Shown one piece after another: positions 25,984-58,362 of a DNA stretch of 58,362 bases. This stretch comes from Actinomyces denticolens (GTDB taxonomy: Bacteria > Actinomycetota > Actinomycetes > Actinomycetales > Actinomycetaceae). The stretch's first letter is position 1. The number at the start of each line of letters is the position of its first letter. The translations under genes were made by a program, and so were the position numbers. The notes under the pieces were generated by a model, which did no database searches, was not told the origin of the DNA, and saw only the letters and a program-made list of their open reading frames with translations. The stretch lies in contig NZ_MVIW01000019.1 in assembly GCF_002072185.1 (NCBI RefSeq), positions 1 through 58,362 on the forward strand, given 5' to 3'.

Positions 25984-26010
25984 CCCCACCCATCGCTCCT
26001 CCCTATCACC

Positions 26011-26108
26011 GAGACCGGTCGAAACCGTCATCGAGACCGGTCGAAAACGCCATCGAAACCGGTGGCCGGTCCTCCGGACCGGTCTCGATCGCCACTTCGA
26101 CCGGTCTC
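26011..26108. repeat. Intact REP-like cluster of 22-bp GAGACCGGTC units
   Basis: Two direct 22-bp units (26011-26032 and 26033-26054) share GAGACCGGTCGAAA and end in ATC. The palindrome GGTCCTCCGGACC (26068-26080) and an inverted unit (26087-26108) follow. The cluster fills the gap between hrpA and the convergent gene at 26135, so it could also stop transcription from both sides. It is the only copy in the window not cut by the IS and shows the presumed empty target: ATCGAGACC followed by GGTCCGGAGG in reverse complement. Confidence 0.85.
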
Positions 26109-26134
26109 GATGGAGGCGGCGGGCCGCCTCGCCG

Positions 26135-31585: not shown

Positions 31586-33073
31586 TCAGGCGAGATGCTG
31601 GAGATGGCCGTCGGGATCCTTGACCCCGGCCATGAGGACGAGCCCGGCGATGAGCACCGTCATGATGCCGAGGATCCCCCAGTAGCCGGCCCCCTGCCCC
31701 ATGAGGCGCGCGCCCACCCAGATCGCCGCCCCGTACAGGGCGGGGGCGAGGAAGGACGCGGCGCGCCCCGTCGTCGCGTACAGTCCGAAGATCTCGCCCT
31801 CGCGCCCGTCCGGGATGAGTCGGGCGAGGAAGGTGCGCGAGGCCGACTGGGCCGGCCCCACGCACGCGGACAGGGCCAGGCCGAGCGCCCAGAACACCGC
31901 CTTGCCGCCGTCGTGGAGGAAGAAGACGGCGTTGCCCGCCACGACGAGGATCGCCAGTGAGCCCATGATGACCCGTCGCGGCCCGATGAGGTCGTCGAGC
32001 CTGCCGCAGGCGATCGTGGCGATGCCGGCCACCACGTTCGCGGCGACGGCGAACTGGATGACCTCGGCGTCGGAGAAGTCGAAGGTGGTGCGCGCGATGA
32101 TGCCGCCGTAGGCGAAGACCCCGGCGAGCCCGTCCCGGAACACGGCCGAGGCCAGGAGGAACCGCAGGACGTTCGGGTGGGAGCGGTACAGGGAGCGCAG
32201 CGTGCGCCACAGGTGCCGGTAGGAGGCGAGGATCGACTCGCGGCGCCCGGTGCCCGCGGCCCCCGCGAGACCCCCCACGCCGGCGATGTCCCCGGGCACC
32301 ACCGGCTCGGTCTCCATCTCGGGGATCTGCCTGGCGAGATCCGCCTCGGGCCCGCCCGCGGCCCGCGCCCCGGGCCGACGGCGCCGACTGGCGGCGCGGG
32401 ACTGGGTGACGAGCACCGGGATCGCCGATAGCCCGAACCAGGCGGCGGCGACGAGCATGGCGACGCGGACATTGAGGCCGTCCGCACTGCTCACGCCGAA
32501 CCAGCCGACCTCGGGACTGATGAGGCCGGTGTAGACCACGAGCAGCAGGACGATCCCGCCCAGGTACCCCATGCCCCAGCCGATCCCGGAGACCGCGCCG
32601 ATCCGCTCCTTCGTGGTCACGTGGGACAGGAGCCCGTTGTAGTTGACGGAGGCGAGCTCGAAGAAGAGGTTGCCCACCCCCATGAGCGCGATGCCGAGCC
32701 ACAGGTAGCCGGGGGCGGGTCTGACGAGGAAGAGCGCGGCGGAGACGGCCACGACCAGCGCGGTGTAGATCCCCAGGGAGGCGACGGCGCGCCCGGTGCG
32801 ATCCGCCCGCTGCCCCGTGACGGGGGCGAGCAGGGCGATGAGCAGGCCCGCGATGGCCATGCCCGCGGACAGGCGCGACTGGTTGGAGGTGGTGTCCCCG
32901 AAGAGTGAGGAGACCAGGTAGGTCGCGAAGACGAAGGTCGTGATGACGGCGTTGAAGGCGGCCGAACCCCAGTCCCACAGCCCCCAGGCGAGGACGGGCC
33001 AGGTCAGGAGGCGGGGCTTGGTCTGCTGCCCGGAGGCGGTGGTCGCCCCCAGGGATGAATCAGGGGAGGGCAT
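31586..33073 (-). CDS. UMF1-type MFS transporter (Atg22-like)
   Basis: The protein has 495 residues with about 12 helices. The N-terminus WPVLAWGLWDWGSAAFNAVI is the UMF1 family signature, followed by TTFVFATYLVSSLFG, PVTGQRADRTGRAVASLG and SHVTTKERIGAVSGIGWGMG. An Arg-rich central loop (about residues 200-240) divides the halves. Substrates of bacterial UMF1 proteins are unknown; the yeast relative Atg22 exports amino acids from the vacuole. TAGGCT at 33085-33080 lies six bases before the ATG without a Shine-Dalgarno, pointing to leaderless translation. It is downstream of ispD but has its own promoter signal. Confidence 0.85.
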   Translation of the reverse strand: MPSPDSSLGATTASGQQTKPRLLTWPVLAWGLWDWGSAAFNAVITTFVFATYLVSSLFGDTTSNQSRLSAGMAIAGLLIALLAPVTGQRADRTGRAVASLGIYTALVVAVSAALFLVRPAPGYLWLGIALMGVGNLFFELASVNYNGLLSHVTTKERIGAVSGIGWGMGYLGGIVLLLVVYTGLISPEVGWFGVSSADGLNVRVAMLVAAAWFGLSAIPVLVTQSRAASRRRRPGARAAGGPEADLARQIPEMETEPVVPGDIAGVGGLAGAAGTGRRESILASYRHLWRTLRSLYRSHPNVLRFLLASAVFRDGLAGVFAYGGIIARTTFDFSDAEVIQFAVAANVVAGIATIACGRLDDLIGPRRVIMGSLAILVVAGNAVFFLHDGGKAVFWALGLALSACVGPAQSASRTFLARLIPDGREGEIFGLYATTGRAASFLAPALYGAAIWVGARLMGQGAGYWGILGIMTVLIAGLVLMAGVKDPDGHLQHLA

Positions 33074-58224: not shown

Positions 58225-58252
58225 GAGACCGGTCGAAAATGTCATCGAGACC
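58225..58252. repeat. REP-like GAGACCGGTC unit, cut by the IS
   Basis: A complete 22-bp unit (58225-58246, GAGACCGGTCGAAAATGTCATC) is followed by GAGACC (58247-58252), where the similarity stops and the IS begins. It provides the left half of the target whose right half starts at 105. Confidence 0.8.
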
Positions 58253-58362
58253 ACTATGTTGGTTGTGGGTGGGTGGGTCTGACTCAATCGAGACCTGACG
58301 GCCCCTGGTTTGCGGGGTGTGTCCTTGGACCGGCCTGTCGGCCCTTGCCCGCCCACGGTTCA
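58253..58362 (+). ncRNA. Left end of the IS110-type element with candidate bridge RNA (target-binding part)
   Basis: No open frame is seen from the IS boundary to the window edge. Inside it, ATCGAGACC (58287-58295) is identical to the target bases just outside the element (58244-58252). CCCC/GGGG (58302-58305, 58314-58317) forms a small hairpin. TTGGACC (58325-58331) is complementary, with two U-G pairs, to GGTCCGG of the right flank at 105-111. GTGGGTGGG (58265-58273 or 58269-58277) pairs with CCCGCCCAC (58348-58356) to enclose the loop. This is the order expected for a bridge RNA target-binding loop: outer stem, left guide, hairpin, right guide. The donor-binding half and the transposase start lie outside the window. 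Confidence 0.6.

Follow-up and report, generated by a model that had tools for sequence, protein, structure and literature searches.

A close described counterpart of the element reported here is IS621, an IS110-group element of Escherichia coli (PMC11208160, PMC11208158). As given in the text of these papers, IS621 carries a target-binding loop in a long left end and inserts into REP targets; its left guide equals the left target through the core, and its right guide starts at the core and continues over the right target (to position 14). Its donor is flanked by ATA/TAT, its right end bears a −35 box, and handshake bases adjoin the right guide. All of these traits recur in our element. In contrast, IS621 has the core CT in both target and donor, whereas our element shows CC at the target and CT at the donor, and the bridge RNA of IS621 is known with its donor loop and its transcript, whereas both are putative in our element. 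Once the top strands of IS621 have been exchanged, its right guide pairs anew with the core of the incoming donor, and the handshake bases pair with donor positions 6-7, which aids this re-pairing (text of PMC11208158). The IS1111 group with its seekRNAs (text of PMC11187229) shares with our element RNA-guided DEDD transposases, the lack of target duplication and inverted repeats near the ends, but places the guide RNA downstream of the transposase. RNA-guided elements are thus already known, and the present one is a further example: a multicopy bridge-RNA element of Actinomyces that targets REPs and whose guides fit 14 of 14 target bases.

The window, i.e. the whole stretch of 58,362 nucleotides that was analysed, is the entire contig C11 of a 2.83 Mb Actinomyces genome in 90 contigs, and each of its termini falls within a separate copy of one insertion sequence. 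Positions 58253-58362 (forward strand, as all features below unless noted) very probably represent the non-coding left end of a member of the IS110 group, and the target-binding loop of a bridge RNA is most likely encoded within them. An origin in the IS110 group and a target-binding loop in the left end are supported by complete elements of the group, whose ends and guide positions are homologous, and by an IS110-like C-terminal peptide, and REP-like targeting is supported by a target preference within the genome. The enzyme, visible only as a C-terminal tail, is a putative actinobacterial bridge-RNA recombinase.

In total, 10 left ends and 9 right ends of this insertion sequence were detected in the genome, all with sharp borders and all stopping at most 116 nt from the border. 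The longest left end (116 nt) belongs to a copy on contig C14 (L002), and the copy in the window is cut by the contig end after 110 nt. The interior of the element, comprising the transposase body and the donor-binding loop, was not found anywhere in the assembly, as expected of a repeat beyond the resolution of short reads, and none of the copies is visible with both of its own flanks. As the target guides are identical in all copies seen within the genome, any covariation of guide and target comes from relatives only. When 48 further genomes of the genus, as well as plasmids and phages, were searched, the left end gave no match. The C-terminal peptide gave none at E 0.01 in a set of 212 further genomes of the family and none in plasmids; in 395 other genomes of the order (a partly overlapping sample) it gave four chance-level matches (E 0.027-0.040), and the ORFs at these four loci contain no IS110 gene by eye. 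An exact pattern of 28 letters and two patterns of 21 and 22 letters were absent from viral contigs, as was one pattern of 30 letters from genome contigs.

Close to its outer border, the left end carries CTATGTTG (58254-58261), which includes TAT and forms an 8-bp inverted repeat with the right-end sequence CAACATAG (90-97); ATA/TAT flank the donor in the IS110 group (text of PMC11208160). This repeat is followed by the 5' arm of the target-binding loop's outer stem (58263-58283), found in the predicted fold and matched by a homologous stem with compensatory changes in relatives, and by the scaffold TGACTC (58280-58285; TGACYC, conserved in relatives) just before the left target guide AATCGAGACC (58286-58295). 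Nine letters of this guide equal the left flank, the core guide lying at 58294-58295, and its register agrees with that of the relatives (16 nt from the start of TGACYC to the guide end). An inner stem (GACG/TGTC) with a C-rich/G-rich apical hairpin occupies 58297-58323; it is present in the fold, and the stem is kept in relatives with some double changes. The right target guide GGACC (58327-58331) complements the right-flank GGTCC in a register taken from the relatives, and the core guide GG (58332-58333) and the handshake-guide bases CC (58334-58335) are position-homologous to the relatives' GATC. The scaffold TGTCGG and the 3' arm of the outer stem (58336-58358; from the fold and the relatives) complete the loop. 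Overall, the order TGACTC, AATCGAGACC, TGACG, hairpin, TGTCCTT, GGACC, GGCC, TGTCGG has the same parts and spacing as in the relatives. The visible end of 110-116 nt stops just short of the donor-guide position: among the 53 listed relatives where a donor-guide-like motif was found, its start lies 117-225 nt away from the junction in 46.

An earlier note, made from the sequence alone, had described a 9-nt exact copy of the left flank, a CCCC/GGGG hairpin and an outer stem. All three hold: 58244-58252 and 58287-58295 both read ATCGAGACC, a 9-mer that none of 20,000 dinucleotide-shuffled versions of the 110 bases contained and that is not a chance match, and the predicted fold forms both the hairpin (58303-58307 with 58313-58317) and the outer stem (58263-58283 with 58337-58358; 20 pairs, interrupted). 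Among 8,312 sampled 110-bp stretches of the window, 58 contain the nine bases preceding them. The note had placed the right guide at 58325-58331. The 7-nt pairing of TTGGACC with GGTCCGG (105-111), including two U-G pairs, does exist, but its register had to be revised. GGACC at 58327-58331 stands, whereas the first two bases, UU, belong to the conserved scaffold TGTCYTT, so that the guide starts at 58327 and not at 58325; the core bases GG (58332-58333) were added by comparison with relatives. Moreover, 105-111 belongs to a different copy of the element, and the two flanks that had been compared are therefore not those of one insertion; even so, GGTCC or GGTTC follows all 9 right ends found, and ATCGAGACC or a near match precedes all 10 left ends.

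The predicted fold of the window's left end is only mildly better than that of shuffled sequences (9/200 as good, z −1.75). In this fold, six pairs join parts of the two guides to each other, which a palindromic target allows, and the guide loop is therefore not predicted to be fully open. Against Rfam, the window gave only a tRNA at the gathering score. A covariance model built from 28 relatives, without the window sequence, scored the left end at 21.0 bits (E 0.002), which is about the level of a false match at 31591-31692 (21.8 bits) in long coding ORFs of the window, and our reading does not lean on this score; among the genome's own left ends, 8/10 scored 15.4-22.1 bits and two went undetected. 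Fifteen relatives outside the training set reached 25-77 bits, and a second place in L189 scored 22.3 bits.

The element sits in REP-like repeats. The left target flank (58244-58252; target positions 1-9, ATCGAGA plus the core CC) is the end of a REP-like repeat before the element, and the right target GGTCC (105-109) starts the remaining REP half at 105-153, where the best REP match of the window begins. An unoccupied exact target, ATCGAGACCGGTCC, lies in a free REP-like repeat of the window (26076-26089, minus strand). Homology to free repeats ends at 58252 on the left and begins at 105 on the right. Across the copies, the left flank reads ATCGAGACC in 8/10 cases and ACCGAGACC and ATTGAAACC in one each (one with 1 mismatch, the other with 2); the right flank is GGTCC in 8/9 and GGTTC in 1/9. 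The targets of the other copies likewise fit the guides. In the genome, GAGACC and GGTCC abut 21 times and are separated by spacers of 1-4 nt in 20 further cases, compared with 10 for all spacers in a reversed control. The stops of the flanks and the abutting free sites place the element between ATCGAGACC and GGTCC without target duplication, and none was seen at the borders of the 10 left and 9 right ends. REP-like palindromes as such are very numerous genome-wide (e.g. 26010-26111 in the window).

The host's REP family has several right-target subtypes (GGTCC, GGTCG, GGTTC and GGCCC), so that the genome itself offers a natural experiment on the right guide. With the left target intact and no more than one mismatch in the rest, the sites comprise 10 with GGTCC, 20 with GGTCG, 21 with GGTTC, 11 with GGCCC and one with GGTCT; six of the 10 exact GGTCC sites are the far arm of an occupied REP. 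The sole occupied site other than GGTCC carries GGTTC, a change that still wobble-pairs with the guide G. Comparing occupied and free subtypes among sites with 0 or 1 mismatch and an intact left target, Fisher's test gave p 3e-5 when all 10 exact sites were taken as free and p 7e-7 with only the four outside far arms of occupied repeats. The value was 7e-4 after adding 11 sites with a one-mismatch left target, an addition made for GGTCC only, and 0.013 when four look-alike right flanks also counted once. These numbers support that the element favours the REP subtype fitted by its right guide, in line with the REP-like targeting that the earlier note had proposed; REP subtypes may differ in other respects, and as the REP is palindromic, part of the guide complementarity is not independent.

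At the other terminus of the window, positions 2-97 encode the last 31 codons of a transposase (LKRAVARNLHHALKQ...) and its stop codon, from a different copy of the element. The right end (80-104), seen in 9 copies, comprises the −35-like TTGACA (80-85), ATA (94-96), the left donor AGGAGCG (96-102) and the donor core CT (103-104), and it resembles the relatives' TTGACAnnnATAGGAGCATC. Only 7 nt separate the stop codon from the right border. A right end this short, together with a left end of at least 110-116 nt that holds the guide slots, is the pattern of the IS110 group. The earlier note had presumed an IS110-like transposase, and the visible end agrees: in the longest copy, the tail of 35 residues reaches 19.7 bits against a profile of the relatives' C-termini (59 distinct segments, at least one of which, L129, is misplaced), compared with 15.1 for the best of 20,000 shuffles, and fits the IS110 C-terminal pattern RCLKRxxARExxxxL. 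This very short tail has no NCBIfam match, and in Pfam only a sub-threshold one (DUF4614, E 0.064). In the two relatives tested, L119 and L182, PF01548 and PF02371 are both present, and NCBIfam names L119 and L096 'IS110 family RNA-guided transposase'.

A scan with the aligned transposases of IS110-group elements from the same genus collected relatives, and 80 were kept of at least 443 relatives in at least 594 stretches. These 80 listed relatives are mostly actinobacterial, and 63 of them have the right-end motif TTGAC...ATAGGAGC, or nearly so, close to the stop codon. The left-end layout was assignable in 62/80. Its first half consists of the junction, TGATGATGG or similar, the outer stem, TGACYC and a 10-nt left guide, and its second half of a TGAC-like motif, the inner hairpin, TGTCYTT, a 5-nt right guide, a GATC-like motif and TGTCSG. 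Anchors were placed automatically in 58/80 relatives, of which 8 were removed (wrong motif); 14 were set by hand and two dropped for short flanks, which leaves 62 and 18 uncounted. Placement by hand was not blind, since the flanks were in view, and four of the 13 hand-placed loci (L154, L179, L183, L189) score only 5. In RNAalifold on 28 relatives, both guides lie on opposite sides of one internal loop, and 15 of 19 pairs show double changes.

Across these relatives, a guide fits the flank of its own element far better than a foreign guide does. Among the 62 listed relatives, the left guide matched the own upstream flank in at least 8 of 10 letters in 43, compared with 120 of 2,914 trials for foreign guides; with automatic anchors only, the counts were 34/49 and 88/1,862. 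When each distinct guide was represented by a single locus, 30/48 reached this level. When only the first seven letters were counted, which discounts the common GAC ending of the guides, 28/62 reached 6 or 7 (foreign guides: 5.4%). For the right guide, 39 of the 62 loci could be used (right end found and left match of at least 6): 6/39 match the own right flank in 5/5 letters (foreign: 0.1%), and 16/39 match it in the first three (foreign: 3.5%). The window's left guide matches its own flank in 9/10 letters, 49 foreign guides reaching at most 7/10, and its right guide fits GGTCC in 5/5. The covariation that the earlier note had suggested looking for is seen among listed relatives but not within the genome, where all copies carry the same guides.

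Which other origins could give such an end? A member of the IS1111 group, in which sub-terminal inverted repeats are long and the transposase is followed by the guide RNA, seems very improbable to us. The 8-bp repeat CTATGTTG/CAACATAG would suit it, as this length falls within the IS1111 range of 7-17 bp and exceeds the 2-3 bp of the IS110 group (text of PMC11208160), but the 7 nt after the stop codon leave no room for a guide RNA in the right end, the left-end guides stand in IS110-group order and spacing, and the C-terminus fits the same relatives. Slightly less probable still is that the left end captured a piece of a REP-like repeat, so that the match reflects descent and an ordinary insertion sequence chooses REPs via its protein. 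REP-like letters are indeed common, with 238 near-matches to the 14-mer ATCGAGACCGGTCC (at most 2 mismatches) in the genome compared with 17 in the reversed control. Against a capture, the match occupies guide slots whose counterparts in relatives match quite different targets, scaffold motifs flank both slots, the two pieces lie 31 nt apart around a hairpin, and searchable REP similarity ends at the border.

Chance complementarity within an unrelated DDE-type insertion sequence would account for the shorter match, as GGACCGG alone appears in 4.5% of the 20,000 shuffles mentioned above, but not for the 9-mer, which none of them contained; the missing target duplication at 10 left and 9 right ends and the resemblance of the ends and the C-terminus to IS110-group elements also speak against it, and we regard this explanation as extremely unlikely. 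An IS110-group left end with a target-binding loop, as the earlier note had read it, is the reading that we retain; the same guide slots exist in complete IS110-group elements.

Following the model of IS621, the element would excise as a circle in which the right end abuts the left end, and the junction is expected to read AACATAGGAGCGCTACTATGTTGG. Such a junction would create a candidate promoter, composed of TTGACA from the right end, 18 nt and TACTAT; the joined ends can alternatively be read as TTGACA, 21 nt and TATGTT. By analogy, the joined sequence is compatible with the circle-junction promoter described for IS621 in the text of PMC11208158. The bridge RNA would presumably be transcribed from this promoter, and its putative donor-binding loop would carry a copy of ATAGGAGCGCT. 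Recombinase activity and strand exchange are likewise assumed here; if the top strand were joined after the core, the target core CC would stay on the left and the donor core CT on the right.

The borders of the window's element in fact differ in this way, with CC on the left (target core) and CT on the right (donor core). Relatives show AC on the left and TC on the right in 42 of 44 listed loci, the other two (L123, L198) looking like matches that are one letter off. When the flanks of four relatives were rejoined, frames stayed open across the junction in L163, L168 and L187, but no frame did so in L155. Insertion-free related DNA exists in plasmid records for L163 and L187, encoding IS5 and IS3 transposases where annotated, and three plasmid loci that were read have the junctions GACAAG (L199), GACAAC (L200) and, synonymously, GATAAT (L201). 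Because of the uninterrupted frames and the insertion-free plasmid junctions, the native target core of the relatives is most likely AC, and TC was probably brought by the element. According to the text of PMC11187229, these families do not characteristically duplicate their target, so that unequal borders as such are not new. A core shared by target and donor, such as the CT of IS621, is absent here and may not be required of the family.

Within the listed loci, the right guide agrees with the donor in 49/52 cases at position 7 and in 48/52 at position 8, and with the target in 3/44 at each of the two; at position 9 it agrees with the donor in 51/52 and with the target in 41/44, target and donor being mostly the same there. 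Most of these loci share one conserved motif, and the agreement of right guide and donor is therefore not independent covariation. Two informative exceptions are in favour: in L159 the donor is TTC and the guide is fitted to it, and in the window's element the donor is GCT and the guide fits positions 7 and 8, with a G-T wobble at 9. In L148, L158, L173, L179, L185, L186, L187 and L189, the guide misfits the donor at some position, and guide position 6 of the window's element matches the target, not the donor.

We see an even chance that the clade including the window's element recombines sites with unequal cores and that its right target guide is fitted to the incoming donor strand and not to the target. 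This donor-fitted reading does not appear in the passages of PMC11208160, PMC11208158 and PMC11187229 consulted for comparison. If true, the handshake known at position 7 of IS621 would reach into the core in this clade, equal cores would be no requirement, and the pairing would favour the forward reaction. The unequal cores would then record the surviving top-strand product, with the target core on the left and the donor core on the right. They touch on one of the rules for designing bridge recombinases, namely that the cores of donor and target should match.

Several elements of the same genus resemble that of the window. The element of Actinomyces ruminicola DSM 27982 (L113/L119) has the left-end start TATGTTGGTTGTG, the same guide slots and a similar right end, TTGACACACATAGGAGCATC, but differs in guide and target (7/10 letters; TCATTTTGAC vs ...GTTTTTGAC), in its donor core TC and in a C-terminal helix-turn-helix on the transposase. 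The elements of A. johnsonii (L112/L182), G032 (L111) and group A of G025 (L095-L101) share the end motifs and left-end architecture and differ in their targets, which in G025 group A is presumably an ISL3-like transposase gene. The right ends of these same-genus elements (L111, L112, L113, L095-L101) read cTTGACAcacATAGGAGcatc. G025 also holds a second multicopy IS110 (group B, L102-L109; ends TCAGACGCTA...TACATATCAG), which was left out of the comparison as an IS110 of another type.

The helix-turn-helix spans residues 345-380 of L119 (HTH_3, E 8e-6) and residues 345-383 of L182, there under its cut-off (HTH_31, E 1e-4), and by eye, the C-terminus is extended in a similar way in many other relatives. 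Several relatives have a right end whose TTGACA box includes the stop codon TGA. Within the window's own genome, the profiles DEDD (PF01548) and Tnp_20 (PF02371) detected only two decayed IS110 copies of another type (L041, L042, L053, L054; contigs C23 and C41). A further candidate, L084/L114, was rejected as a relative: its likeness to the right end is of low complexity, and by eye it is a degenerate, unrelated copy. Next to this decayed IS110 copy, CRISPR-like direct repeats are visible by eye in the first 500 bases of the minus strand of L114. Finally, IS110 relatives with the right end TTAGAAGGGCGTCC were found in records titled E. coli and Klebsiella michiganensis (L190, L191).
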